Assembly: GCA_003116975.1 (NCBI GenBank) | Contig: BGKB01000021.1 | Coordinates: 682,001-746,000 of the forward strand | Direction of reading: 5' to 3' | Length of the DNA stretch: 64,000 nt | Origin: Aurantiochytrium sp. KH105 | Lineage: Eukaryota > Sar > Bigyra > Thraustochytrida > Thraustochytriidae | Shown: piece after piece, positions 1 to 16,115 of the stretch | How the letters are laid out: every line of letters begins with the position of its first letter | Numbering within the stretch: the first letter of the stretch is position 1 | Position numbers and translations under genes: made by a program | The notes under the pieces: model-generated | Databases searched by the model: none | The model's input: the letters and a program-made list of their open reading frames with translations, nothing else | Told to the model about the DNA's origin: nothing

Positions 1-645
1 CGGCGTCTCGCGCTCCGTAGCGGACTCCGCGGCAGAGTCCGTGGCAAGAAGCTGGGACATAAGATTCGGATTACCAACTTCCTTAGAGAGCAGCGTGGAC
101 TTGAAGATATCGAACGCCTCATGCGTGTCATCGCCAAAGTAGGTCCAGGGTTCGATGAATCTGGGCTGGAAAATCCAGGGGACGCCGCCCGCAGATCTGG
201 TTGCTTGAGACGTTCTCACCACTGAAGACCTGAAAGGGGGCGGCACGGCTACGGCTCCAGTTCCGCTTGAAACCATCGCGGCAATCTCGCGTGCGCGAAG
301 TTCGCTCGTTCGTTCACGCGCGGCGACAGGTGGAGCGACGTGCGCCACGTCACCGTCAAACCACTTGTAAATCGTGCGGTTGTCGCGTTCACTTACGGCA
401 CCGAGAAGCATTACCTTTTTACGACTAAAGTTTACTTCAAGTTCGTCCGCACGCGCGACGAATGCATCAACTTCATCGGCGGAGAGTCGCTCGATCCACG
501 GAGAATTGACCCTGGCGAGCAGTTCCTTTCTTCCCCACCCCTCCATGGCTTCGAGCTCCTCGTCCGGTACAGGCACCAGGAAAGGCGCACCGACGCCATC
601 CTGGGGTCGGACGCCAGTGTCACGAGCGCGCGCGCCCTCCGCCAT
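1..645 (-). CDS. Repeat-encoded protein, copy 1 (partial, possibly gag-like)
   Basis: An open frame starts at the ATG at 645 and runs leftwards for 215 codons to the window edge without a stop. It is nearly identical to the reading frame at 2277-3030, with a few substitutions. The protein is acidic at the N-terminus, with an Ala/Arg/Glu-rich middle and a Trp/Phe-rich stretch near residues 160-185. I recognise no named domain. Being one of two direct copies beside an assembly gap, with a CTTT-repeat leader, suggests a retroelement gag-like protein, but no zinc knuckle, protease or reverse transcriptase is visible because the downstream part lies off the window. A recently duplicated host gene is the alternative. 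Confidence 0.4.
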   Translation of the reverse strand, partial: MAEGARARDTGVRPQDGVGAPFLVPVPDEELEAMEGWGRKELLARVNSPWIERLSADEVDAFVARADELEVNFSRKKVMLLGAVSERDNRTIYKWFDGDVAHVAPPVAARERTSELRAREIAAMVSSGTGAVAVPPPFRSSVVRTSQATRSAGGVPWIFQPRFIEPWTYFGDDTHEAFDIFKSTLLSKEVGNPNLMSQLLATDSAAESATERETP

Positions 646-1020
646 GGCTCAATGGCTGCTTGTTTGCAATTTGCTGACCAGACTTTCCTTCTTTCTTTCT
701 TTCTTTCTCTGCTGTCCTTTAGGCCTTTTACAACGAGTAAATTTGTATTTGCGCCTGCCGACGCTTTCCACGATCCTGGTGCAGTCCATCAGAGTGTCTT
801 TGATGCCTTGCAGTGAGGCTGCGCTCGTCGAGTAGCGTGCGATGAGACGCACTTTGGAATGGAGACTGTGATTGTTGTCTGCCCGTCCCCAGAAGAAGCG
901 TTTGCTGAAGCCGACTGCGAGTTCGTTTTGCATTTAGAATTGGGTGTCAAAATCAAAGAGGCTGTATAGGTGTGTGTGGTTCGGGTTATTTCGTCAGTCT
1001 AGGCCTACTAGGTAAGTCGG
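646..1020. repeat. Leader of repeat copy 1
   Basis: This stretch, upstream of the copy-1 ORF start, matches 3031-3400 closely up to about position 925 and then more loosely to about 1000. It contains a short CTTT run (about 684-706) and a conserved block with a minus-strand open frame (649-933). It would correspond to the 5' leader or LTR side of the element. No clean terminal repeat or primer-binding site could be identified. Confidence 0.55.
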
Positions 1021-1353: not shown

Positions 1354-2276
1354 NNNNNNNNNNNNNNNNNNNNNNNNNNNNNNNNNNNNNNNNNNNNNNN
1401 NNNNNNNNNNNNNNNNNNNNNNNNNNNNNNNNNNNNNNNNNNNNNNNNNNNNNNNNNNNNNNNNNNNNNNNNNNNNNNNNNNNNNNNNNNNNNNNNNNNN
1501 NNNNNNNNNNNNNNNNNNNNNNNNNNNNNNNNNNNNNNNNNNNNNNNNNNNNNNNNNNNNNNNNNNNNNNNNNNNNNNNNNNNNNNNNNNNNNNNNNNNN
1601 NNNNNNNNNNNNNNNNNNNNNNNNNNNNNNNNNNNNNNNNNNNNNNNNNNNNNNNNNNNNNNNNNNNNNNNNNNNNNNNNNNNNNNNNNNNNNNNNNNNN
1701 NNNNNNNNNNNNNNNNNNNNNNNNNNNNNNNNNNNNNNNNNNNNNNNNNNNNNNNNNNNNNNNNNNNNNNNNNNNNNNNNNNNNNNNNNNNNNNNNNNNN
1801 NNNNNNNNNNNNNNNNNNNNNNNNNNNNNNNNNNNNNNNNNNNNNNNNNNNNNNNNNNNNNNNNNNNNNNNNNNNNNNNNNNNNNNNNNNNNNNNNNNNN
1901 NNNNNNNNNNNNNNNNNNNNNNNNNNNNNNNNNNNNNNNNNNNNNNNNNNNNNNNNNNNNNNNNNNNNNNNNNNNNNNNNNNNNNNNNNNNNNNNNNNNN
2001 NNNNNNNNNNNNNNNNNNNNNNNNNNNNNNNNNNNNNNNNNNNNNNNNNNNNNNNNNNNNNNNNNNNNNNNNNNNNNNNNNNNNNNNNNNNNNNNNNNNN
2101 NNNNNNNNNNNNNNNNNNNNNNNNNNNNNNNNNNNNNNNNNNNNNNNNNNNNNNNNNNNNNNNNNNNNNNNNNNNNNNNNNNNNNNNNNNNNNNNNNNNN
2201 NNNNNNNNNNNNNNNNNNNNNNNNNNNNNNNNNNNNNNNNNNNNNNNNNNNNNNNNNNNNNNNNNNNNNNNNNNNN
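1354..2276. other. Assembly gap (923 N)
   Basis: An unbroken run of N lies between two direct copies of the same segment, so the gap probably results from the repeat and its true size is unknown. All reading frames crossing it are meaningless. Confidence 0.99.
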
Positions 2277-3030
2277 TCTGATATTTGCACCCAAGAGTCA
2301 CGGAATCCTGCGAAAGATGTTCGATGACCGGGTGGAGGCCGTGGGCGAGAACGCGCTGGTGGTACGTCTGTGCCCAGGCCTGCACCGGCGTCTCGCGCTC
2401 CGTAGCGGACTCCGCGGCAGAGTCCGTGGCAAGATGTTGGGACATAAGATTCGGATTCCCAAATTCCTTAGAGAGCAGCGTGGACTTGAAGATATCGAAC
2501 GCCTCGTGCGTGTCATCGCCAAAGTAGGTCCAGGGTTCGATGAATCTGGGCTGGAAAATCCAGGGGACGCCGCCCGCAGATCTAGTTGCCTGAGACGTTC
2601 TCACCACTGAAGACCTGGAAGGGGGCGGCACGGCTACGGCTCCGGTTCCGCTGGAAACCATCGCGGCAATCTCGCGTGCGCGAACTTCGCTCGTCCGTTG
2701 CCGCGCGACTTCCGGGGGAGCGATGTACGCCACGTCGCTGTCGAACCACTTGTAAATCGTGCGGTTGTCGTCTCTTTGCACGGCACCGAGAAGCATTACC
2801 TTTTTACGACTAAAGTTTACTTCAAGTTCGTCCGCACGCGCGACGAATGCATCAACTTCATCAGCGGAGAGTCGCTCGATCCACGGAGAATTGACCCTGG
2901 CGAGCAGTTCCTCTTCCCCCCACCCCTCCATGGCTTCGAGCTCCTCGTCTGGTACAGGCACCAGGAAAGGCGCACCGACGCCATCCTGGGGTCGGACGCC
3001 AGTGTCACGAGCGCGCGCGCCCTCCGCCAT
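2277..3030 (-). CDS. Repeat-encoded protein, copy 2 (interrupted by gap)
   Basis: The ATG is at 3030. About 251 codons are readable before the frame enters the N run, so the C-terminus is missing. It is the second copy of the protein at 1-645 and extends about 36 codons further, with a segment rich in Gln, His and Leu (about residues 215-245) that could be the start of a gag-like helical region. No catalytic motif is visible. The leader upstream (3031-3400) is shared with copy 1. Gag-like retroelement protein is the best guess; an unassigned multicopy gene is the alternative. Confidence 0.45.
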
Positions 3031-3074
3031 GGCTCAATGGCTGCTTGTTTGCAATTTGCTGACCAGACTTTCCT

Positions 3075-3105
<31 letters not shown>

Positions 3106-3400
3106 CTGCCAGCCAGTCAGTTAGGCCTTTTACAACGAGTAAACTTGTGTTTGCGCCTGCCGACGCTTTCTACGATCCTGGTGCAGTCCATCAGAGTGTC
3201 TTTGATGCCTTGCAGTGAGGCTGCGCTCGTCGAGTAGCGTGCGATGAAACGCACTTTGGAATGGAGACTGTGATTGTTGTCTACCCGTCCCCAGAAGAAG
3301 CGTTTGCTGAAGCCGACTGCGAGTACGTTTTGCATCAAGATTCAGAGGTCAAGATCCAGGAGGGCGCAGGCGTGTGTGGTTAGGGTCGTTTCGACAGCCA
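3031..3400. repeat. Leader of repeat copy 2
   Basis: Direct repeat of 646-1000. The CTTT run here is longer (about 3068-3106) than in copy 1, so the copies have diverged at the microsatellite. Similarity fades near 3400, marking the approximate element boundary just before the virus-like island. Confidence 0.6.
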
Positions 3401-3477
3401 TAGACTGGTCCAATAGTTTGAGAGCAAGAGGAAGCCATAAATTGGTTCGTCAGTTTGAGAGCAAGAAGAACTGAAGT

Positions 3478-3490
3478 GTGTTATATAAAG
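3478..3490 (+). promoter_or_regulatory. Possible TATA box for the virus-like ORF
   Basis: A TTATATAAAG-type motif lies about 95 bases upstream of the ATG at 3582, at the junction between the repeat and the island. A similar motif occurs near 1053. Position and sequence fit a TATA element, but this is a motif match only. Confidence 0.3.
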
Positions 3491-3581
3491 TCACGATGTC
3501 TTTTGAGTAGAAAGAAAGAAGAAGACGCTGCAAACTCATTTAGTACATACAACGTTAAGCATAGCATAGTTGAGACGGAGC

Positions 3582-4157
3582 ATGCACGGCGTCAGCAGTA
3601 GTAGCCACTCCGGGACTCCATCTATTTCGTCTTCTTCCTCTCCATCGACAGGGCTCGGCGGCAGCAGCAGCAGCTCTTACCATGTCCCTTCTATTCGTAC
3701 CGTGTCTCTAGCAGATTCAAAGCCCTTGACTGTCGGACTTGTGACGCGACCTGATGGTAAGGCGTGGTGGAAGGTCGAGAGCTCTCTGCCTCGCATGCGT
3801 CCTAGCCCTCTCAAGTCTCTTACAATGGCAACGTCTTTCGCAAGTTCTTTTCCTGTGCGTTCGTATTTGATCGAACATGCTCTCCTGTCAATGATCGCTT
3901 TCAACGACCTTGCGCTTGGTCGTGCTCAGAAGTTCTTGATCGACGGCTGCGACTTTGTGTACTTTCTTGATGAAGGGGAGAAAATCACAGTTCCGCGTCT
4001 ACCACCTAGGGTGCGGATAAAGTTCTCACTGTGGGGCGAAAACAAGCACCCTATTTTCAAAGTTTGCGTGGTGGAGGGGCGCGGTAACAGCAGCGGCAAA
4101 CCCGAATTTCCAGCTGCATTGGGTGCAAAACGAAGACGTCGGAGCGGTAGTGAGTGA
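3582..4157 (+). CDS. Unassigned ORF in virus-like island
   Basis: A 191-aa frame starting at the first ATG (3582). The first 35 residues are Ser-rich. The core (about 40-170) is a mixed alpha/beta globular-looking region, and the C-terminus ends in a basic cluster (KRRRRS) that could be a nuclear localisation signal. I recognise no family. The stop is only 54 bases before the ATG of the TBP-like gene, a packing much tighter than elsewhere in the window, and base composition is visibly less GC-rich than in the neighbouring myosin genes. Context suggests a viral gene; function unknown. Confidence 0.5.
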   Translation: MHGVSSSSHSGTPSISSSSSPSTGLGGSSSSSYHVPSIRTVSLADSKPLTVGLVTRPDGKAWWKVESSLPRMRPSPLKSLTMATSFASSFPVRSYLIEHALLSMIAFNDLALGRAQKFLIDGCDFVYFLDEGEKITVPRLPPRVRIKFSLWGENKHPIFKVCVVEGRGNSSGKPEFPAALGAKRRRRSGSE

Positions 4158-4211
4158 AGTGATAGGTGGGTCGGCTAATCCATCAATCTATTGATTGACC
4201 AAGTGCGCGCG

Positions 4212-5407
4212 ATGGTGGTGGGAGCTCAGAGAGGCGCGCGTGACGGCGAGGGGGGTACGACCACTACTACGACAGCCACAACGCCGATCGCGATACCGCA
4301 CAAGACTAGTTTGACTCTCTTTCGATTCATCATTAAGGTCGACCTTCAGCTTGATGACTTTGCTCATCGCACGGTGAACTGTGTGCTGTCCACAGAGAGC
4401 AATTGGCGGTGCACATACTATGGTTCTGACTTCACCGTGAACATCTTTGCTGCAAAAAAGCTTCCTTACCCTGCTATCGTGTGCATGGCTTTCACAAAGG
4501 GAAAGAGCGAAGAGGACTTCCGGCGAGACTTTGTTGAACTATTCGGTGTGAGTGGAGACTGTGTGGGCAAGCCAACACTGGTGAACTGGGTTGAGAAATT
4601 CTACACGCCATATCGCCCACTCGATTTGGACGGTTTGTTTGCTACCTTGAATGCTGAGGCCGACACGTCTGTCTCCATGAGAAGAGGAAAGTCTATGGTG
4701 ACGGCAGTAGCACGTGAAGATCAAAGACGAGTTTCAGGGACTCGGGGTAGGCGTCCAAAGAGTGGCGTGAGAGGATACGGTAGCAGCAGCAGCAGCAGCA
4801 GCACCGGCGGCGGCGGTGATAACAAGGCCAGTGCTGCTCCTCGTACGGCCAATAAGATCCACTCCTATGACGCAGACGCTGCCAACTACCCAGAGGACAC
4901 GTGCTTCATTGTGAAGAACAACAGCAACGACAGCGACGGCATCAACATTGTGCGCGGTGGGGGAGAAGATGCTGCAGCTGGGACCTACGGGCAAAAGCCA
5001 GCCCTGTCGATGATCAGCAATCGTTCTGTGCGCTTGTGGTGCACCCTTTCCCACTTGATTTCAAGCTTGCCATCGAAATATTTACATCAGGAACGCTCAA
5101 TGTGGCAGGGATTCCAAGCCAAGAGTGTTTCGAGCGAGTGCAAGAGTACATTACGACGCGGTTGGCGCCGATGATGGCTCAGCACGCACTCTGTGATACG
5201 AGAGACGCCGAAGAAGGTGGTGACGAGTACGACAGCGACTCTCTCTTTTTTTTTAAAAATCAATCAATCAACAAGTCAAGTCAAGTCAAGTCAAGTCAAG
5301 TCAAGTCAAGTCAAACTAACAAATTTTGTATTTGTGTGCATACCAAACAGCTTGAAGCAGTGCATCTGCGACGTCATCGCGCTTTGCTGCAGTCACGCGC
5401 GACATGA
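4212..5407 (+). pseudogene. TATA-binding-protein-like gene, frameshifted
   Basis: Frame one runs from the ATG at 4212 to a stop at 5174. From about 5030 the recognisable signal continues in the frame offset by -1, which stays open to 5407. That second segment carries a strand pattern typical of a TBP lobe (hydrophobic strand, then IEIFTSGTLNVAG, then a helix with CFERVQEYI), with a Ser/Gly-rich linker before it (about 4780-4820). The N-terminal half (4310-4640) plausibly forms the first lobe but is weaker. Loss of one base near 5020-5045 explains the break; sequencing error or real decay are both possible. The tail reads into an AAGTC repeat and overlaps the antisense resolvase. The TBP-like assignment is from fold pattern only. 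Confidence 0.5.
5273..5314. repeat. AAGTC pentanucleotide repeat
   Basis: About eight tandem copies of AAGTC lie between the TBP-like frame and the 3' end of the resolvase on the opposite strand. The unit length is not a multiple of three, so any frame crossing it is unstable to repeat slippage. Confidence 0.9.
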
Positions 5408-5878
5408 ATTTGGGGAAGAGACTGTGTGCTTTTCCAACAGCAGCTCGCTTGTTCGCGGCGTGATTCTTTTTAGCGCCCTTGACAGACTTGCCGCTTTTCT
5501 TGCGAGAGAATTTACAGTTACCAGTGTTGAAGTGTGCTTTCACAGATCTCGGACTGACAAACTCGTAAGCAAAGTTGCTTCGGAAGCATACAGCTCCTAT
5601 CACGTGTTGGTGAGGAGCATTTTTCTCTTCATCTGCTCCTCCACAATGACCACGCGCGCTTGTTCGATCATGGCCTTTAGAGGTGACTCCTGGTGGAAGA
5701 AAAGCTTGAAAACGCGGGGAATGATCTCGGCCTCGTCTTTCATCGCCTTCATCGATGGCGCAAGAGATAGTTTGTCAGCAAAGACCACATCCTGGCCGTT
5801 CGCTTCGTAAAATGCTACACCAATGTTGACCACACCAACGTCGATGCTGAAGATGAGCGAGCTTGTTGGATCGCCCAT
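5316..5878 (-). pseudogene. Poxvirus A22/giant-virus-type Holliday junction resolvase, frameshifted
   Basis: The first true ATG is at 5878. Frame one ends at 5600. Frame two overlaps it at once (a GTG at 5603) and continues to 5316, about 187 aa in total, the usual size of viral A22-type resolvases. RuvC-fold acidic motifs are seen in order: SIDVGVVNIG near the N-terminus (catalytic Asp), VVIVEEQ mid-protein (catalytic Glu), and KRDDVADALLQAVWYAH at the C-terminus (paired Asp). The two frames join with loss of one base near 5600. These enzymes cleave branched DNA during viral genome maturation. The mitochondrial CCE1/Ydc2 family is the main alternative, but the neighbours favour a viral origin. 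Confidence 0.65.
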
Positions 5879-5919
5879 AGGGCGGGCACAAAATGTTACG
5901 CTACACAACACATAAACTC

Positions 5920-6234
5920 CTAGCAGATGAGGCAAGTGCCTTTCGCTGCACCCTCGCCGTTTGGTTTTGAAAGTTTCGTTAAATGATGCATGATCCCGTT
6001 TTCATTGCAGTTTTCTTCTTCTTCTTCTTCTTCTTCTTCTCCTTGTTTTTGATCTTCTTCTGCCGTTCCCTCTTCGATCGCTTCGAGGGGCACGAGATCA
6101 AAGCCGTTGTCTTCAAAGTATCGAATCTTTTTGCTTACTTTCGCTTTTCCTTCAAAATTAGAAAGATGGGCGACTGTGCTTGGAGTCCATTCATCTGCTT
6201 GTATCAAGCCTTGGAAATTGCGTAAGGCGGCGTG
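5920..6234 (-). pseudogene. Unassigned minus-strand ORF, apparently broken
   Basis: An open frame of roughly 100 codons lies just upstream of the resolvase on the same strand, about 40 bases from its ATG. It has no convincing ATG: the frame opens after a stop at about 6235, and the region before it reads coherently in another frame (about 6215-6275), suggesting a further frameshift. The N-terminal half is globular-looking (LSNFEGKAKVSKKIRYFEDN); the C-terminal half has a polyglutamate run from GAA/GAG repeats near 6013-6045. No family recognised. Its spacing suggests it belonged to the same viral gene cluster. Confidence 0.35.
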
Positions 6235-6279
6235 CTATCATTTCCTCTTCCGGCAGAATTTCATAAGAAAACCTGGCCG

Positions 6280-7677
6280 TTCAAACAAGCTTTTGCAGCG
6301 CTGAACGGGAGACTTGATCATTTGCTTTCCAAGTGCCCCCGCTTCGACCCAAGTGCTTCCGCTTCGACCCGAAGGAAAGAGCAAGATTGGGAACAGCCAG
6401 AAAGTTTTGGCTATCTCGCACAAGCAAGCCAGCAGACTTTCTTCATCCCAAATTCCATTGCGGTCTCACTCTTTACAAACGTGCATCTCTGCTATCATGC
6501 TCTTGATCAGCACTCCGAGGAGCTAGACCTTTGTATAAAAACGATTTGCCCTCGACGTCAACGATAAGCCTGTGCATTCTTCTCGTCCTCTGCCGTAATT
6601 GCGAGCTCTACAGTTGAAGAACGCTCGGGCTCCGCGCAGCGCAGACACCCTCGGTACCCCGCCTTTGCCCTGCCCTCGCGCCTTTGCTTGGCCTTACCTC
6701 ACGCCGAGAGAGGGGTACGCGGCGCAGTCCATGTCCCCGAGCGCGCTGTCGACCTTATGGCAGCTCTCCTCACGGCATCCTTGACGCGCGGTCATCGAGA
6801 CGACAGTGAGGTCTCCGGGACCCTCTCGAGCCGCTCCTAAAGGCTGAGGCTGGCCGCAGCCGACGTCACCAGCACCACCACCACCAGCAGCAGGAGGAGC
6901 CCGAGGAGGTCTCGCCCGGGCGCTCAGAAGCCGGAGCGGCGCGGCGCGGCGATGCACTTTATGCGGGCACTGCCTGCGTGCTTTACGCTGGTAGGCAGAC
7001 ACAGGCAGCGAAAAACACACGTTCGCCGTCCGCCGCTGCGGCCGCTCCGGCCGCTCCGGGCGCGGCGCGCAGGGAGGACGGGAGGGAGCCCCGGCCGCGA
7101 CGCGCGCAGAGGCGGCGCGGCGAGGCGGGAGAGGGCCCGCCGGCGGACGCGCGGCGGCGGAGAGCAGGCGTCGAGGCGGGCGAGCGAGGGTGCAGCCAGC
7201 TGCAGCGTGCGCAGGCCCGCTGGCAGCACGTGCCGCCCGGAGGCGCGCGCACACAAGCACACGGAGGATAGAGCAGTGTATAGGCAAAAGAATAAACAGA
7301 GTAGTAAGTAAGAAAACAGAAATATGGAGAGAGAAACACGGGGAGAGAGAGAGAAACAGGGAGAGAAAGAAAGAAAGAAGGAAGGAAAGAGGAAAGAAAG
7401 AAAGAAAGAAAGAAACAGAGAAGAAAAAGGATTGACGGGAAGCAGGCAGCAGAGCCAGAACGAGGCGCGCGTGCTGCACGCGCCGAGCGAGCGAGCGAGC
7501 GAGCGAGCAGCGGCGCGCAGGGCGGGCGAGGAGCGCGCGCGGAAGACGGGCGCCCGAGGGCGGGCGGCGCTGGGGATCGGCGCGCGGCCGCAAGCCTTCG
7601 GCGAAACGACCGGGTCTCTGGAGCGACTCGAGTGGACCCACGTGCACACGCGCCCCAGCACGCTCGCACGCCAAGAA

Positions 7678-7781: not shown

Positions 7782-10700
7782 ATGTCGAGGGCCACCAAGG
7801 GAGGCACTTTTGCCAATGCCGCCATCTCAGAGCGCAAGGTGGTGGGCGTGGAAGACATGGTAATGTTGTCGCGCATCGAAAATGAAGCCATCCTTGAAAA
7901 CTTGCGCAAGCGCTTCGTCGCCAAGGAGATCTACACCTACATCGGAGACGTGCTCATCGTGTGCAACCCGTTCGAATGGCTGCGGCTCTACGATACACCT
8001 TTCATTAAGATGTACGAGAATGGTGTCCGCGCCGACCTTGCACCACACATCTTTGCTGTTGCCGAGTCCGCCTTTCGCAACATGCTTCTTGAAGAGGAAA
8101 AACAGTGCATAATCATCTCGGGAGAGTCTGGCGCCGGCAAGACTGAGGCCGCCAAGCAGGTCATGAACTACATTGCCGCCGTCTCGGGAAGCGGCGCTGG
8201 AGACCGCAAGGTGACCGAAGTCAAGCAGATCGTTGTCGAGTCCAACCCGGCCCTCGAAGCCTTTGGCAATGCCATGACGCTGCGCAACAACAACTCCTCT
8301 CGTTTCGGAAAGTACTTTGAGCTCAAATTCGATCTCGCCAACGGCGGCACACCCCGCGGCGGCTTCGTCACCAACTACCTGCTGGAGAAGTCACGCGTCG
8401 TGCGTCCAGGGCCTGGTGAGCGCTCATTTCACATCTTTTACCAGCTTTGCCGCGGTGCCCCTCGCGATGTCATCGAGAACCTCGGCCTCTCCGACCCCGA
8501 GTCCTTCCAGTGCCTAGCCATGTCGGGCGTCACTGATATTGACAACGAAGGCGGTCGTGTCGACGACACAACCGAGTTCAAGGAGACTGTGCACTCGCTG
8601 CAGACCATCGGCGCCTTTCCGGAAGACCAATTCGATCTCTTTACTGTCGTGGCCATTTGCCTCCATCTGAGTAATGTGAGTTTCTACGCCGTCAACGTTG
8701 ACGGCGCAGAAGGCAGTGAGGTCGCCGATGCGCGGGCGCTCGAACCCGTCGCCGCGCTCATGGAGGTCGATTCCAGCGCGCTCGCCTACGCGCTCACGTA
8801 TCGCACCCTCACGACCATGGCCCCTGGCGGTCGCCTCGAGACCTACCAGGTGCCTCTCAACCCGACGCAGGCCACTGCGGCTCGCGACGCGCTCGCCAAG
8901 GATCTGTACTCGCGTCTCTTTGACAATCTCGTCATGCGCGTCAACAAGGCGCTCGAGAATACTGGCAATAACACGCGCATTTCTATGCGGCGCGACATGC
9001 GCAAGATCGGCGATGAGGACGGCCTCAGCATTGGTGTTCTCGATATCTACGGCTTTGAGATTTTCGAGAACAACCACTTTGAGCAGTTCTGCATCAACTA
9101 CGTCAATGAAAAGCTCCAGCAAATCTTCATCGAGCTCACCATCAAGTCCGAGCAAGAGACGTACGCTTCTGAAGGCATCCAGTGGCAGTCCATTCCGTAT
9201 TTTGACAACAAGGTCGTGTGCGACCTGATCGAGGCCAAGAAGCCCCCTGGCATCTTTGCCATTCTCGACGATACCGTCAAGACCGCCCATGCGCTCGGCA
9301 GCGCTGACGACAAGTTTCTCGAGAAACTCCAGTCGTTCCATAGCTCCCACGCGCACTACAGCAAGTTCCGCGGTGGCTTTTCCATTCTCCACTACGCCGG
9401 TCGCGTCAACTACAACGGTGACGGCTTTGTCGAGGCAAATAAGGATACCCTTAGTCAGGATCTTCAGCTCTTGGTGCAGAGCAGCACCAACACCTTTGTC
9501 GCCGGACTTTACCCGGAAAAGATCGACCTTGATCAACGTCGTCAGCCCACAACGGCCGGCTTCAAAATCAAGCGTCAGTGTGGCGATCTCGTCTACGCAC
9601 TCATGGATTGTGCTCCGCACTACGTGCGCTGCATCAAGTCAAACGACGAAAAGCGCGCAGGTGGATTCGATGACGACCGCGTCATGTACCAGGGCATGTA
9701 CCTCGGTCTTCTCGAGAACGTCAAGGTGCGTCGTGCCGGCTTTGCCACGCGCATGGAGTTTGACCGCTTCATCGCCCGCTTCAAGGTTCTTGGCGCCGGT
9801 CGCCTCGACCCGCAAGTGCTCGCGCATGGCACGGACTACGACATTGCTGCGGCAATTCTCACCGTTGCCATGGACACCGTTACGGAGCTGCAAAAGCCGG
9901 GAGAGGCGCAGCTCGGTCGCTCCATGGTCTTCATCAAGTCTCCCGATACCTACTTTAAGATGCAAGAAATGCGCAAGTCTCTCGTCGGTGAGCAGGCCAT
10001 CAAGATCCAAAACCTCTGGCGTCGCTTCGCGAACCGCCGCGACCTTGTCTCGCTGCGTCTTGAGATGGCCGAGCTCTGGAACGAACAGGGCAAAGAGGCC
10101 ACGCCTGCCGATCTTCTGCGCAACTACTATGCCTTTTACATCAAGGACCGCCCCCTGCTTTCGGCCATTAGCGACCTTCTCGAATGGTTTCAGGCCAACG
10201 AAATCAAAAAGGAGCGTATTCAGTATACAGAGCAGCTCTCGCGTCTCGATGTCCACGGCCGCTTCGTCCCCATCGTTTTTGTGCTCACCGATGCTGCCAT
10301 GTACCTTGCGGAGTGGCGTGTTAAGCCGGGCCAGCCGCGCATGGCCCCTGGCGGTCGCGGCCTTGCCCGCGAGCAAGAATACCAGCTCTATCTTCGTCGC
10401 CGCACGGCGCTCAACAAGATTCAGGGCGTCATGCTCAGTCTGGAGGCCGATGATCTCGTCGCCATTCTTTGCGAGCCCCAGGAGAAGCTCAAGAAGCCCA
10501 TCAAGGACGGCTTCGAGGATAAGAAGAAGATCAAGCGCTGCCAGGAGACACAGCAGCCCTTTTCCTTCTTTGGCGCCTCCAAACACCAGTGCTCCTCTAC
10601 CGGTGGAGTCTACGTCAAGGAGGTCATGTCCCCGGAGAAGATCCCATTGCCCGACCGTGGCTTCTACACGCCTGTGGAAGTCCACTCGAGCGTCCCGGGT

Positions 10701-11762
10701 CTCGTTTCCGTCGAGATGCGCGAAGACGTGGTGGTCATGTCTGAGAAGAAGGCCGAAATTGTCGCCGTCTTGCGTAACCTCGTGACGCTCGCCAAGGGTG
10801 GCGCCGCGCAGATGAATCAGCTTGATCGTGAGGCGCTCCGCAAGCAAATGCAGACGCCCCAAGAGGCCCCCATGGCGAACGTTCTGTACGACTATGCGGC
10901 TACCCAGGAGGACGAACTTGAACTCACGGAAGGCACCAAGGTGGAGCTCCTCGACACCGCGCATAGCGATTGGTGGCTCGGCAAGTACAAGGGCAAGACG
11001 GGTCTTTTTCCTGCCTCGTACGTACAAAAGCTCGCCGCGCCCATTGTCAAACCCAAGCGAGCCAACCCGAACCGGTACAAGATGGACGTCAGGTTTGAGA
11101 ACACGTGGCACCTGAACCAGGCGACCGTGCCTGCGCTGAGCAACACGCCCAAGGGCGCGATCGAATTCCGACGGGACGAGGGCATTTCCGAGATGCGTCT
11201 GGGCAAATCCGGAGGCAAGATTGTTGTTCACGTCCCGCTTGGTGTAGCGGGTCGCAAGCTGCGTGAGATTCAGGCTGCTCAGGCTGAGCGCGCAGCGCGT
11301 CGCGAAGCCGAGCGCCAGGAACTCTTTGAGCTGCGCAAGCAGAATGCTCAGCGTCGCGAAGCGCAGCGCCGCGCCGATCGCGAAAAGCGTCTCGACGCGA
11401 AGAAGGCCAAACGTCGGCAGGAAAAGGCCAAACGCGACAAGGAGACGGACGCGATGAACTTTGGTGCTCGGAATGCCGCCATGGGTGGCGCCTCTTTTGC
11501 TGCGCGCATGGAGGCCCAACGCCGCGACGATGGCGGCCGTACGGGAGGAGGCAGTGCCGCGAGCGCCGCACCTCCGCCCTGGGTCACTGCTCGTTCCAAC
11601 AAGCCTGCGGCTGCGCCCAAGAAGCCCGCGCCTCCCAAGAAGAAGGAGGTGTGGGAGGCCTATCGCGACGACGACACGGGCGACATTTACTACTACAATG
11701 TTGAGTCCGGCGAAACCACCTGGGACAAGCCTCGCGGTTTTACTGGCCAGGTCATTGCCTAA
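7782..11762 (+). CDS. Class I-type myosin with TH1, SH3 and WW domains
   Basis: A 1,326-aa single-exon frame from the ATG at 7782. Motor domain about residues 20-730: P-loop GESGAGKTEAAK at 114, switch I NNNSSRFGK near 168, switch II DIYGFEIFENN near 420. One IQ-like motif follows (QAIKIQNLWRRF, about 738). Residues about 770-1000 match the membrane-binding TH1 tail, including the hydrophobic LTDAAMYLAEW strand. An SH3 domain (about 1030-1082, ALYDY-type start, WWLG) is followed by an Arg/Glu/Lys helix (about 1165-1225), an Ala/Pro linker and a C-terminal WW domain (about 1290-1318, with two spaced Trp and DIYYYN). It should link actin to membranes and proline-rich partners, as in endocytosis. 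TH1-SH3 is classic long-tailed myosin I; the WW end is the unusual part. Confidence 0.93.
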   Translation: MSRATKGGTFANAAISERKVVGVEDMVMLSRIENEAILENLRKRFVAKEIYTYIGDVLIVCNPFEWLRLYDTPFIKMYENGVRADLAPHIFAVAESAFRNMLLEEEKQCIIISGESGAGKTEAAKQVMNYIAAVSGSGAGDRKVTEVKQIVVESNPALEAFGNAMTLRNNNSSRFGKYFELKFDLANGGTPRGGFVTNYLLEKSRVVRPGPGERSFHIFYQLCRGAPRDVIENLGLSDPESFQCLAMSGVTDIDNEGGRVDDTTEFKETVHSLQTIGAFPEDQFDLFTVVAICLHLSNVSFYAVNVDGAEGSEVADARALEPVAALMEVDSSALAYALTYRTLTTMAPGGRLETYQVPLNPTQATAARDALAKDLYSRLFDNLVMRVNKALENTGNNTRISMRRDMRKIGDEDGLSIGVLDIYGFEIFENNHFEQFCINYVNEKLQQIFIELTIKSEQETYASEGIQWQSIPYFDNKVVCDLIEAKKPPGIFAILDDTVKTAHALGSADDKFLEKLQSFHSSHAHYSKFRGGFSILHYAGRVNYNGDGFVEANKDTLSQDLQLLVQSSTNTFVAGLYPEKIDLDQRRQPTTAGFKIKRQCGDLVYALMDCAPHYVRCIKSNDEKRAGGFDDDRVMYQGMYLGLLENVKVRRAGFATRMEFDRFIARFKVLGAGRLDPQVLAHGTDYDIAAAILTVAMDTVTELQKPGEAQLGRSMVFIKSPDTYFKMQEMRKSLVGEQAIKIQNLWRRFANRRDLVSLRLEMAELWNEQGKEATPADLLRNYYAFYIKDRPLLSAISDLLEWFQANEIKKERIQYTEQLSRLDVHGRFVPIVFVLTDAAMYLAEWRVKPGQPRMAPGGRGLAREQEYQLYLRRRTALNKIQGVMLSLEADDLVAILCEPQEKLKKPIKDGFEDKKKIKRCQETQQPFSFFGASKHQCSSTGGVYVKEVMSPEKIPLPDRGFYTPVEVHSSVPGLVSVEMREDVVVMSEKKAEIVAVLRNLVTLAKGGAAQMNQLDREALRKQMQTPQEAPMANVLYDYAATQEDELELTEGTKVELLDTAHSDWWLGKYKGKTGLFPASYVQKLAAPIVKPKRANPNRYKMDVRFENTWHLNQATVPALSNTPKGAIEFRRDEGISEMRLGKSGGKIVVHVPLGVAGRKLREIQAAQAERAARREAERQELFELRKQNAQRREAQRRADREKRLDAKKAKRRQEKAKRDKETDAMNFGARNAAMGGASFAARMEAQRRDDGGRTGGGSAASAAPPPWVTARSNKPAAAPKKPAPPKKKEVWEAYRDDDTGDIYYYNVESGETTWDKPRGFTGQVIA

Positions 11763-12278: not shown

Positions 12279-15200
12279 CTAGAGCGTTTCCGGAAGCTTG
12301 CTTTCATACTTTTGCGCAATTTCCCGCAAGTACGGGTTCAGGTCGTTGATGGCCTTCAAAAACGCCTTGTCAGGAACGGAAGGCAAAGCACTCGCATCTT
12401 TCTTGACCAGAGCCTCGATTTGCTCGTCGCGCCACGACAAGAGGGTACACAGCGTCTCGTTCGCCTGTTCAGCATGCTCTGCACGGGAATCCGCCTGAGC
12501 AAGCTTGCGCAGGACTGTGTTGTGACGGGCGCGTGTCTCGACGATCTCGTCCATGAGCGCAATGTTCTCCTTCATGAGCGAGGTAATCGACGCGGGAAGC
12601 TCCTGCATCATGGCCGCCGTCACTGTTGACGTTATCTCTCCCGCATCCTTGTGCGGCTCCTTTCGGTCATCATCGTACATATCGAGCGTCTTGGACTCTT
12701 CGTGCTCCCGTCTCTCTGCACTCTTTTGCAGTCTTCGCACCTGGTCGCGCAATGCATCGAGTTCAAGAGCTTGGTCTTCGTTCTCCCGTTTCAAGGTCTC
12801 GATTTTGACGCGCTCTTGCTCGAGCGAAGCGTCAGCGAACCCGCACTGCTTGAGCGCTTCTTCTGCGCGCTTATCGGCGAGTTGGGCGCTGTTGCGAATC
12901 TTTTCGAGCTCGGCCTGAAGATGCTCGACACTACGCTCTGCGGTCTCGGCGCGACGCAAGAGTTCGTGCTCCTCCCTTTTCCTGTCGCCATCGCCACGAA
13001 TATGCTCCTGGACCGACTTGAACACCACATCCACTGCATCCTCCATGGTCCGAGGAGAGACGCGGCGACCTTCCGTTCGCGGTGAAGTGACCGCGGAGGT
13101 CCCTGTTTCGCTACCCTGGCCAAAGAGTGCCAGCACAAAGGAATTGAGATCGCTCAGCCGCGACACGACCGTCTTTTCGCGCTGCTCCCACCTGAGGATG
13201 GCGAGCTCTTGATCCGGGGATGCCATCAAGCTTACGACAGACGCACGTGGAGATCGCGGCGATCGCGGTGTTCGTGAGGTTTTCGACGCCCGTGATTGCG
13301 AGCGAGGACGTGCGGGGGATGTGGCAATATCTACCGCATTTGGCCGCACAGCGCCGTGGAAAAGTCGCGGTGAGGGCCCACCTGCGGGTGACTTGGCGGC
13401 GGCCTTCTCGGCGCGAACGTCCGTCTCCGAGGCAAGCTCGCTGTCCGGAGTCTGCGGAGAGCTGTCAGGCGTGCTCCATAGCGAGTGGGCGGCGTCCACC
13501 TTTTGCTGACCTCGCTTCAAAGCGCGCGCGAGCTCTTCGCGAAAAGCAGCTCGCGTTCGCATCCCACGGATGAAACTCTGCACGCGAACAATTTTGCGCA
13601 CAAATCCTACAAAGCGTACGCGAACGGAGAAGGCCTGAATGCGCAACGCGGCGCGCTCGCGCTTGGCAAGCATGGAGCGTCGAAAGGTGCGCGAAATGAT
13701 GCGCGAGGCGGCTGTCAGCCTCGAGGCAACGGTGCGGTCGAGCTTTTCGGCAAGCTCGCGCCGCAAAAAGACCTTGGTGTGACCAAGCTGCCATTGCGCG
13801 TTGTCGTTGAGCCCAAAGATACGCGAGACGTAGCGCACGAGCTCACTGCAGTCGCGAGCCGTCGGCGCGAGCACGCGAAACCTGCGATAGAACGCCTCGT
13901 GGGGTTCCCGCAGTGCATAGCCCTGGTCCCGAATGCGGATCGTCTCGAGCATGCCTGCATGGCGGAGCTGATCAAGGCACTTTTTGGAGTGGAAGAACCC
14001 CGGGCGCTTGACCTCGTTTGGCTTGATGCAGCGAATAAAGTGCGGCTCGCAAGCCTCGAGACGCGACATGAGCGTATTGAGCTGCTTTCGGAACTGCTCC
14101 GACACGGTCGGCGGGCGCAGCGACGCGGCGCGCTTGCGGGCGCGCTGCTTGCCGGACTTGGCGTCGCGGGCGCCTCCAAAAAGATTCTGGAACCACATCT
14201 CGGAGGAACCTCTCATCACCGCGGCAAGACCTTCCGAAAGGGAGTCATTGTTCTTTTGCAGAAAGCCGTCGACAGTGTATTGCACCGCGCCAGCGTAGTG
14301 GGCAACGCCAAAGCAAGCATCATTGCCAAAGCGAGGAAAGACATAGTGAGGATGGATGCCCTTGTGATTCGTGTGCAGTTTGCGCAGCAAGCTCTGGTCG
14401 GAACCACGCGGCATTAGACATTCCTCGTCGAGCAGACTGAGCAGAGACACGTTCGAGGTCTCGATGAGGTCCAAACAAGCCTTGTTGTCATTGAACTCAA
14501 TGCGCGACCAGTCAATACCCTCGCAGGCATACTCTTCCTGTTCGACCTCGAAGATGTGTTTGTTGAAGTGGCGCTGCAGGCGTTCATTGGCAAAGTTGAT
14601 TGCGAATTGCTCGAAAGAATTCGTTTCAAAGACCTCAAAGCCGTAAATGTCGAGAATCCCAATCGAACGGCCCGTCCCTGGGGAACACAGCGAGTCGATG
14701 GTTGCTGTCGAGTCGAGCGAGGCGGAGCGGCGCAGAACAGCCTGCTGTCGACTTCCCACCGCGTTCATGGCATGCCCCGCAAGGCTCGTGTTGATGCGCT
14801 GAATGAGCCAGCGGAATAATAGCGCGTAGAGCGCCTTCGCCAGAGCGTCGCGCTTGCCTCGCGCGGTGGTCGCTTTGACGGGCGTGTGGATCGTCTCGCC
14901 GCCAACGGTGACGACGTTGGTGCATAGGGCCATTTCCAGCTCTGTTTCCTCGAGACCAAGCGCTTTGGCAGCGGCGGCGAGCTCGTCGGGCTCGCACCGA
15001 GAACCTTCCTGCTGCTCGAGACGCGAGTCGTGGATGGCGATCTGGCCAAGGAGAAGGACGGCCGCCAGGGTCTGGAAGACGGCATTTCGTTCCACCTCCG
15101 AAACGCCGACAGTCTCCATGCAGTGCACCGTGCGGGCAAATTTGGTGGCGTCGTTGGTCTCCTGCAAGGCCAAGCCCACGCCCTCGGCAATGTAGACAAT

Positions 15201-16115
15201 TTCATGCTCGGGAAGGTCGGAGAGTCCAATTTTCTCTAAGAGCTCGGCAGACCCGCCCCGAAGCAGCTGATAAAAAATGTGGTAGTTGCGCTCACCCTCG
15301 CCCTGGCCAATGATGCGGCTTTTCTCGAGCAGATAGTTGAGTACCTTGGCACCTTTGATAAGGCCCGACTCGTCGATTTCGATCTCTATAAATTTTCCGA
15401 ATCGCGATGAGTTGTCATTGCGCACCGTTTTGGCATTGCCAAAAGCTTCGAGAAGAGGATTTGAATCGAGCACGCGCTGTTCAAGCCCTGGAGGTGCCGC
15501 CTTGCCATCGGTGCTCTTTGTTTCACAAAATTGGCGCCCTGCACTCGACAGGTATTTCATAATGATCTTGGTGGCCTCCGTCTTGCCAGCGCCACTTTCT
15601 CCACTAATGATGATGGCTTGGCTTGCACCGGGCTTGGCGGTGGCGCTGCCATCGCCGTTTCCCTCCACGGCAGCTCGATATGCATTTTCTGCCGTCAAGA
15701 ATACGTGTGGTTTGACTTGCGCCTTACGCTTGCCTCGGTAAGAAGCCATGTCACTTTGCGAGTAGATATCGCACCATTTGTACGGATTAATGGACACGAG
15801 AATGGGACCGACCATGGAGTAGAACTTGTCCTGCTCGTAGCGCTCGCGCAGACTGTGCAACAGCGACTCTTCGCTGAAATCGCTTAGGTGCAACAGGTCC
15901 TCGACTGGATCGACGACTTGCGCATGTGTCGGTGTTAGCATTTCTGCCGCCACCTTGAGTTGCTGGCCACGGAGCGTGGTCACGGAGTACTCGCATGCAT
16001 CGCTGATGTGCGTGACCTCGGCGAACTCGAAAAGCCGTCTTTCGTCCGTGAGATTGACCCAAACCTTGGACCCCACGAGAATGTGCTGCGCGCCTTTGCC
16101 GGCGCTGTCAGTCAT
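12279..16115 (-). CDS. Unconventional myosin with N-terminal SH3-like region, IQ motifs and coiled coil
   Basis: The in-frame ATG at 16115 gives 1,278 aa; an upstream extension to 16250 has no ATG. An SH3-like N-terminal module (about residues 12-55) precedes the motor (about 60-770): P-loop GESGAGKTEATK near 168, switch I NDNSSRFGK, switch II DIYGFEVFETN near 485, and the actin-side CEPHFIRCIKPNE near 685. The neck (about 795-865) has several IQ-like Arg-rich helices. The tail has a Ser/Pro/Arg-rich linker (about 920-1000), a coiled coil (about 1045-1160) and a short conserved-looking helical end. The layout resembles the class V/XI group or a stramenopile-specific class; cargo cannot be read from the sequence. 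It converges on the neighbouring myosin I. Confidence 0.92.
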   Translation of the reverse strand: MTDSAGKGAQHILVGSKVWVNLTDERRLFEFAEVTHISDACEYSVTTLRGQQLKVAAEMLTPTHAQVVDPVEDLLHLSDFSEESLLHSLRERYEQDKFYSMVGPILVSINPYKWCDIYSQSDMASYRGKRKAQVKPHVFLTAENAYRAAVEGNGDGSATAKPGASQAIIISGESGAGKTEATKIIMKYLSSAGRQFCETKSTDGKAAPPGLEQRVLDSNPLLEAFGNAKTVRNDNSSRFGKFIEIEIDESGLIKGAKVLNYLLEKSRIIGQGEGERNYHIFYQLLRGGSAELLEKIGLSDLPEHEIVYIAEGVGLALQETNDATKFARTVHCMETVGVSEVERNAVFQTLAAVLLLGQIAIHDSRLEQQEGSRCEPDELAAAAKALGLEETELEMALCTNVVTVGGETIHTPVKATTARGKRDALAKALYALLFRWLIQRINTSLAGHAMNAVGSRQQAVLRRSASLDSTATIDSLCSPGTGRSIGILDIYGFEVFETNSFEQFAINFANERLQRHFNKHIFEVEQEEYACEGIDWSRIEFNDNKACLDLIETSNVSLLSLLDEECLMPRGSDQSLLRKLHTNHKGIHPHYVFPRFGNDACFGVAHYAGAVQYTVDGFLQKNNDSLSEGLAAVMRGSSEMWFQNLFGGARDAKSGKQRARKRAASLRPPTVSEQFRKQLNTLMSRLEACEPHFIRCIKPNEVKRPGFFHSKKCLDQLRHAGMLETIRIRDQGYALREPHEAFYRRFRVLAPTARDCSELVRYVSRIFGLNDNAQWQLGHTKVFLRRELAEKLDRTVASRLTAASRIISRTFRRSMLAKRERAALRIQAFSVRVRFVGFVRKIVRVQSFIRGMRTRAAFREELARALKRGQQKVDAAHSLWSTPDSSPQTPDSELASETDVRAEKAAAKSPAGGPSPRLFHGAVRPNAVDIATSPARPRSQSRASKTSRTPRSPRSPRASVVSLMASPDQELAILRWEQREKTVVSRLSDLNSFVLALFGQGSETGTSAVTSPRTEGRRVSPRTMEDAVDVVFKSVQEHIRGDGDRKREEHELLRRAETAERSVEHLQAELEKIRNSAQLADKRAEEALKQCGFADASLEQERVKIETLKRENEDQALELDALRDQVRRLQKSAERREHEESKTLDMYDDDRKEPHKDAGEITSTVTAAMMQELPASITSLMKENIALMDEIVETRARHNTVLRKLAQADSRAEHAEQANETLCTLLSWRDEQIEALVKKDASALPSVPDKAFLKAINDLNPYLREIAQKYESKLPETL

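Follow-up and report, generated by a model that had tools for sequence, protein, structure and literature searches.

The question raised by this locus is whether a short and crowded group of genes inside a thraustochytrid chromosome is of viral origin and, if so, which kind of virus it came from. The window, that is the whole stretch of 64,000 nucleotides of Aurantiochytrium sp. KH105 analysed here, lies in C21, a contig of 1.04 Mb, and the viral stretch sits inside this contig. A sequence-only reading had proposed that positions 3478..6280 hold a new endogenous lineage, or a fragment, of a large DNA virus, possibly of the mirusvirus kind. Our analysis indicates that the island is very probably a piece of a large DNA virus of the mirusvirus type (Duplodnaviria) that was integrated into the chromosome and has decayed there.

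Extent and composition of the gene block

The short, tightly packed reading frames described at first sight are real: three genes, D, E and F, are crowded into positions 3582-5878, with 54 bases between D and E (Table 1). The frames of E and F are broken, and neither these breaks nor the copies elsewhere in the genome were part of the sequence-only reading. The gene block itself was confirmed but its limits had to be redrawn, as the right edge lies near 6152, with host myosin following, and the left side crosses a gap of 923 N and leaves the window, the block starting at a duplicated kinase-like gene. The duplication is a direct repeat of 91.9% identity (C21 681892-682997 against 684277-685397). 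The myosin gene has a 99.5% identical counterpart on contig C68. The lower GC that had been reported was recovered when GC was plotted along the window, 3478-6280 having a value of 0.501 against a mean of 0.570 (sd 0.031) for 2803-base segments from 6300 onward, 2.0% of which reach a value as low; it is not unique to the island, with similar GC at 20.5-23 kb and 49-51 kb.

Table 1. Features of the viral block and its surroundings, in positions of the window.
Feature	Position	Strand	Remark
Direct repeat, left copy	1..997	.	starts outside the window at C21:681892
Gene C copy 1, N-terminal part	1..645	-	remainder left of the window, C21:680633-682645; 92% to C13 copy
Assembly gap, 923 N	1354..2276	.	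separates the two tandem copies
Direct repeat, right copy	2277..3397	.	tandem duplication of gene C and its upstream region
Gene C copy 2, N-terminal part	2277..3030	-	residues 1-252, 82%; remainder within the N gap
Gene D, 191 aa, open frame	3582..4157	+	no family match
Gene E, TBP-fold, frame broken	4212..5257	+	end placed by eye from C40 homologue
Gene F, RuvC/A22-type Holliday junction resolvase (predicted)	5316..5878	-	two-piece match owing to frame change
Gene G, C-terminal remnant	5920..6152	-	cut by the block's right edge; limits by eye from C40 homologue
Viral block right edge in C21	6152..6152	.	C68 edge the same to within 1-2 bases
Host myosin (Myosin_head, SH3, WW)	7782..11762	+	next gene rightwards; profile match 3.5e-216

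Identity of the resolvase and TBP-fold genes

The assignment of gene F as a Holliday junction resolvase was supported by profiles, conserved residues and fold. It matches a PHROG resolvase at 2e-8 and Pox_A22 at 5.4e-4, under the cut-off of the latter, and an alignment of 32 rows displays invariant D13, E80, D166 and D167 and a nearly invariant D170, which we take to be the RuvC-type active site. The model of the open C40 copy (pLDDT 94.7) has RuvC as its best PDB match (1.2e-6), and canarypox resolvase was matched at 8.7e-4. The gene F family is predicted to be a RuvC/A22-type resolvase with an RNase H-like fold and conserved acidic residues; the window copy is broken, and four of the six copies are broken or cut. 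The fold and the invariant acidic residues are common to poxvirus A22 and RuvC-type resolvases, whereas the 61 relatives of gene F are mostly environmental and 30-64% identical, apart from the only one with a named organism, the thraustochytrid Hondaea fermentalgiana (95%). The refutation by best hits to host genes that the sequence-only reading had named did not occur, and each of the 10 resolvase matches in the genome is an element copy or the C168 locus described below. The adjacent gene G encodes a basic protein of 170 aa on C40.

For gene E, a TBP-like identity was borne out by remote methods only, namely the fold of the C40 model and the Pfam match of the C168 homologue. The 320-aa ORF in the window terminates out of frame; open copies are found on C40 and C282, and the gene is broken in three of the five readable copies. 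Pfam did not match TBP to the window gene, found TBP in 2/15 members of the E family (best 0.0041) and placed the C168 homologue above its TBP cut-off, while a sequence search of the PDB with the E profile gave no TBP and three unrelated matches, none of them better than E 0.11. The structure model of the open C40 protein has TBP or initiation-complex entries as its best 42 PDB matches, and the fold is thus shared with the cellular TATA-binding protein, although the identity in those matches is 10-12% and a long low-confidence insert separates the two halves. In a viral-structure search the same model found NCLDV proteins named as TBP, such as that of Heterosigma akashiwo virus (4.7e-4).

The metagenome matches of E and F have the longest-contig sizes 13585, 9105 and 2251 in common, so the two genes are probably neighbours there too. 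The terminase discussed below and the resolvase have one such size in common (3034), which chance could explain, and it was left out of the argument.

A related locus and the viral lineage

The evidence on the lineage of the virus comes mostly from C168, a low-GC contig of 176 kb with a diverged locus in the gene order of the element together with a terminase and heliorhodopsin, a combination that points to mirusviruses. The order R1-R2-F-E is the same on C40 and C168, on identical strands, with 29-48% identity by BLAST segment. R1 and R2 of C40 have a host-like GC3 of 0.76, and C40 R2 stands at 48% to C168 R2 and 50% to the R2 of C38/C160, which is probably the host's own. GC climbs to 0.55 in the first 2.5 kb of C168, which look host-like, and its start and end have no overlap beyond 3 bases.

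The C168 terminase is 52% identical to one on C182, and further pieces are found on C9, C220 and C73. The terminase matches a PHROG terminase at 2.3e-16 and Pfam PF03237 only under the cut-off, and the terminase profile finds the herpesvirus tripartite terminase subunit 3 as best match (5.6e-11), with T4 gp17 at 0.0044. A Duplodnaviria terminase large subunit is thus present on the contig of the F and E homologues, outside the window fragment. Both heliorhodopsin matches in the genome are on C168, one over the cut-off (2e-31), and no control genome was matched. Neither gene was seen in the examined stretches of C21, C16, C13, C40 and C68, and they are tied to the window lineage only via C168, the terminase also via the pieces on C182, C9, C220 and C73. 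PolB and RNAP A are adjacent on C358, a contig separate from C168 and the window.

In the counts of PMC10132985, TBP is found in 59% of mirusvirus genomes against 0% of Nucleocytoviricota and heliorhodopsin in 64% against 5%. The same paper lists RNR and resolvase among mirusvirus genes, and both are common to Nucleocytoviricota also. Since our viral-structure search found NCLDV proteins named as TBP, the 0% is a count of that paper and not absolute. Of these traits, TBP is found by fold for window gene E and by Pfam for the C168 homologue. Mirusvirus membership is therefore probable on the basis of terminase, TBP, heliorhodopsin and synteny, mostly from C168. The capsid is not part of this basis; the double-jelly-roll family PF04451 had zero matches in the genome, but also zero in 14 controls. 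An NCLDV as the donor would also account for the resolvase and RNR, which both phyla possess, and for the structural match of the E model, yet it is unlikely given that C168, with the same gene order, has a herpes-like terminase and heliorhodopsin. As far as is known, NCLDVs have a packaging enzyme of another kind. Scanning viral_contigs with the RNR small subunit, E, F and terminase gave no confirmed relative.

Copies, integration and fate

Copies of the block on C16, C13, C40, C68 and C282 are 96-98% alike, and on C40 the block continues to a ribonucleotide reductase. The right end of C21 is that of C68, C16 extends 112 bases farther and C13 and C40 continue; the left ends also differ. A tree of the six copies has short internal branches with mostly weak support. 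This similarity, together with the tandem duplication in C21, could be taken as the mark of a self-copying mobile element, a transposon or polinton-like virus with E and F among its genes, but we consider this very improbable as the end points vary on both sides, the block belongs to a longer viral gene order and terminal repeats were not seen by eye in the edges inspected.

Host uL13 and PEX1 lie on either side of the viral DNA in C16, and the probable allele of this site, C41, is without viral DNA, so the C16 copy sits in a chromosome and is confined to one haplotype. Where C16 has 9,778 bases, C41 has 253 that do not align; therefore the site has been rearranged as well and is no clean empty site. 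Contamination, which the sequence-only reading had named as a possible refutation, is unlikely because of this host-flanked copy and the position of the stretch inside a 1.04-Mb contig. Least probable of all is that the region is simply a compact part of the host genome, with E and F as ordinary genes for a host TBP and a CCE1-type resolvase of mitochondria: both functions are present in eukaryotic cells and the GC is just modestly low, but every resolvase match in this genome belongs to the element or C168, hardly any relative of E and F comes from a named organism, and the repeated copies, the differing ends and the probable allele lacking the C16 copy contradict it.

Taken together, the gene identities, the copies and the synteny with C168 bear out an endogenous large-DNA-virus fragment, probably of the mirusvirus kind. 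The TBP-like protein would have served the virus by directing transcription at its TATA-type promoters, and the resolvase by cutting branched intermediates of replication ahead of packaging by a terminase. Host chromosomes may have captured fragments of the viral genome, or a single insertion may have been copied ectopically, in a burst that perhaps dates to roughly the time when the two haplotypes diverged, with decay since. Since neither E nor F has an intact frame here, the island is most likely inert.

Gene C encodes a protein of 671 aa with a kinase-like C-terminus and has 14 full-length copies in the genome. Because 13 of these have no internal stops and dN/dS is 0.33-0.45 (dS up to 0.17; five copies measured), while E and F are mostly broken, the host might have kept and multiplied it, either as a captured viral gene now functional in the cell or as a selfish spreader on viral debris; we hold this only tentatively and think it rather doubtful. 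In the first case gene C would have a present cell function, for instance against other viruses. Profiles support the kinase part only; by eye the protein resembles Crinkler-type nuclease-kinase effectors, the nuclease part being a possible resemblance. Gene D had no family in Pfam or NCBIfam, and its dN/dS is 0.25 against the C16 and C40 copies (aligned 120 aa).

By its viral proteins the genome is near Hondaea, and two mirusvirus-type lineages coexist in it, the better preserved one on C168 and the other as scattered fragments, so that the fate of an insertion (capture, spread, decay and possible gene retention) can be measured within one diploid-looking genome. The element is of a known kind, a further member of the endogenous mirusviruses already published for thraustochytrids; the fragment that had been proposed stands, but not a new lineage in the strong sense. 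According to PMC12911909 and PMC12210455, which describe the work of Collier 2023 and Chung 2025, Aurantiochytrium limacinum has an active subtelomeric mirusvirus genome and an episome, the integrated genome being 300 kb according to PMC12210455. The host group, the kind of virus and the chromosomal integration of one copy are alike, whereas here the copies are short, broken and scattered, that of the window lies within a 1.04-Mb contig, and C168 holds a second lineage in better condition. The scattered giant-virus fragments of Acanthamoeba, as portrayed in PMC12210455, resemble the present case in that several partial copies exist (85-95% alike in Acanthamoeba), some variants are specific to one allele and no transposon ends are reported, but their donors are NCLDVs and the donor here is of the mirusvirus type.

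Extent and composition of the viral block

A virus-like island had been proposed at positions 3478-6280 of the window from the sequence alone; its viral nature was borne out but its limits were not, as the stretch is a piece of a larger viral block. Between 25.8 and 62.6 kb of the window, a Pfam scan of eight more long ORFs gave matches at <=1e-5 for six, all of ordinary cellular kinds, and none for the other two. A TTATATAA motif was spotted by eye at 1054-1061, ~400 bases upstream of the start of gene C copy 1 (minus strand), and again at 3481-3488, ~100 bases ahead of gene D.

Features of the viral block and its right flank in the window
Feature	Position	Strand	Remark
Gene C (kinase-like), copy 1			leftmost, continues left of the window
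N gap	1354-2276		between gene C copies 1 and 2
Gene C, copy 2	2277-3030	minus	
Gene D (no family match)	3582-4157		
Gene E (TBP fold)	from 4212		
Gene F (resolvase)	about 5316-5878	minus	
Gene G (basic protein) remnant			between gene F and the edge near 6152
Right edge of viral block	near 6152		
Myosin gene	starts 7782		first right of the block; Pfam
Second myosin gene	12279-16115		Pfam

The GC content of 3478-6280 is 0.501, against a mean of 0.570 (sd 0.031) in 2803-base windows from 6300 on; the lower GC noted for the island thus stands, with 2.0% of these windows being as low. The GC3 of genes D (0.53) and E (0.58) also lies inside the 0.50-0.73 of the 12 host ORFs measured, and thus the virus would not be recognisable from composition alone.

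Identity of genes E and F

Gene F had been read as a Holliday junction resolvase, and its model (pLDDT 94.7) has RuvC as its best structural match. Alignment of 32 rows gave 11 invariant positions, including D13, E80, D166 and D167, acidic residues of the kind that forms the RuvC-type active site. Among 117 candidates, 61 relatives were found at E <= 0.01, the closest being a Hondaea fermentalgiana protein, 95% identical over 91% of the query, with the remaining 60 at 30-64%. In a tree of 63 resolvases the copy on contig C40 of the same assembly pairs with that of Hondaea (support 1.0), whereas that of contig C168, a diverged locus with the same gene order, groups with other environmental sequences, a placement which indicates that the two lineages are distinct.

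For gene E, neither the window ORF nor the open C40 copy matched TBP in Pfam. A set of 6644 candidates yielded 14 relatives at E <= 0.01, with 36-64% identity, and none of them carries an informative name. An AlphaFold model of the C40 copy had a mean pLDDT of 67 and a pTM of 0.53, with most core blocks at 85-95 and one insert below 50. This model matched 40 PDB structures at E <= 0.001 (best 8.8e-6). All of these, like the two ranked just below them, are entries for TBP or for transcription initiation complexes, two of them, 3eik_A and 3eik_B, bearing no other title than 'double stranded DNA binding protein'. The C168 homologue exceeds the Pfam TBP cut-off (33.6 vs 22.9 bits) over a 35-residue stretch. 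The proposed TBP-like gene is thus upheld, the predicted link being by fold, together with the C168 homologue, since a profile search of PDB sequences with E did not find TBP and only 2 of 15 family members match TBP in Pfam. On contig C282, a 1242-aa ORF (L032:4523-8251) adjoins gene E.

Copies, integration and gene state

A DNA search with window 3400-6300 returned 18 matches including the query itself: five places match over 1.7-2.9 kb at 93-96% (C68, C16, C40, C13 and, at a contig end, C282), C239 holds a 0.6-kb piece, and 11 shorter matches lie at 71-97%, some just 35-38 bases long. Six copies differ by 2-4% over the aligned block; the internal branches of their tree are short, with a support of 0.89 for one and of <=0.53 for the rest. 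A transposon is rated a very unlikely alternative. The window's contig, C21, shares its right edge and host flank with C68 (blastn identity 93.0% for the island, 91.0% and 95.9% for the flanks; myosin dS 0.058), which suggests that C68 is its allele, in which case the insertion would be older than the haplotype split, although the two are not grouped in the tree. Stretches identified by Pfam as uL13 and PEX1 flank the C16 copy, each with two genome matches, on C16 and C41, and the two are separated by 253 unaligned bases on C41 but by 9,778 bases, including the viral block, on C16. This arrangement indicates that the viral DNA at the C16 site lies in a chromosome, and that C41 is most likely the other haplotype, from which it is absent. 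Probable older remnants lie at C17:548336-549613 (L045) and C36:406002-406936, comprising a D-like stretch next to a ribonucleotide reductase (RNR) small subunit riddled with stops.

C40 and C282 carry an open gene E; on C21 and C16 it is interrupted, on C68 matched in two pieces, and on C13 readable only in its 3' part, beside an N gap. Matches to gene F free of internal stops lie on C40 (full length), C68 (residues 1-181) and C239 (1-170, ending inside the contig), and C21, C16 and C13 each match it in two pieces. Between open copies, dN/dS was 0.22-0.28 for B, 0.33-0.45 for C and 0.19 for E; the values for D (0.15-0.25), F (0.32) and two small proteins (0.21 and 0.29) rest on small counts (1-8 changes per kind). 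A ratio below 1 means that selection, in virus or host, was at work during some of the divergence; gene A (0.82-1.17) shows no sign of it, and host myosin gave 0.03. Gene B (L039:3441-4751) is similar to nucleotide-sugar dehydrogenases, with a TIGR03026 match of 3.6e-12 that falls below the cut-off.

Gene C, a 671-aa kinase-like ORF at L039:1011-3026 and present in 13 further places, has at least 68 matches, at least 14 of them full-length (lower bounds, with 66 of 208 candidates scored); pieces or other kinases make up the remaining 54. Thirteen of the 14 lack an internal stop and one has a single stop. The chance of a copy staying stop-free is 0.54, 0.30 and 0.05 at 1%, 2% and 5% divergence, for random substitutions from a common ancestor and ignoring indels. 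Retention beyond chance is therefore likely, but the stop-free copies could also have arisen through recent spread or through selection acting in the virus.

Related, probably viral loci and known mirusviruses

Two small proteins extend the block on C40, together with an RNR small subunit (Pfam 3.7e-89); the large subunit lies ~8 kb further, past a WD40 gene, in two pieces. The order of RNR large subunit, small subunit, F and E is the same on C168, at 29-48% identity by BLAST segment. C168 (176 kb, of which ~16.4 kb was read) combines open genes for RNR, the resolvase and TBP with a low GC content (about 0.37-0.47 in the 10 kb measured), matches to terminase and heliorhodopsin, and a first 2.5 kb that looks host-like. 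This contig is probably a mirusvirus genome in a far better state of preservation, within the same assembly. Both heliorhodopsin matches in the genome are on C168, one over the cut-off. Terminase gave 14 matches, of which those on C182 (468 aa, vs 559-604 in most relatives) and C168 (52%) are long; C9, C220 and C73 carry pieces at 71-88%, and C184, C85, C70 and C181 shorter ones. Its relatives number at least 77 among the 7997 candidates scored, those sharing most words; two of them are attributed to Hondaea by name, at 51% and 76% identity, and both lineages may thus be present in Hondaea too. At C358:20000-29000 (L047, 34-kb contig), a PolB with an intein-like domain adjoins an RNAP large subunit at GC 0.41-0.50, and this stretch looks viral.

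Judged by titles and abstract openings, none of the papers among the matches listed was on scattered mirusvirus fragments in a thraustochytrid, a negative limited by PMC12210455, which also credits elements in 'other thraustochytrids' to Collier 2023. For comparison, mirusvirus gene content is treated in PMC10132985 and PMC12768974 and the mirusviruses of A. limacinum in PMC12911909, with PMC12221091 as a further paper beside these, and PMC12210455 provides a precedent in Acanthamoeba.
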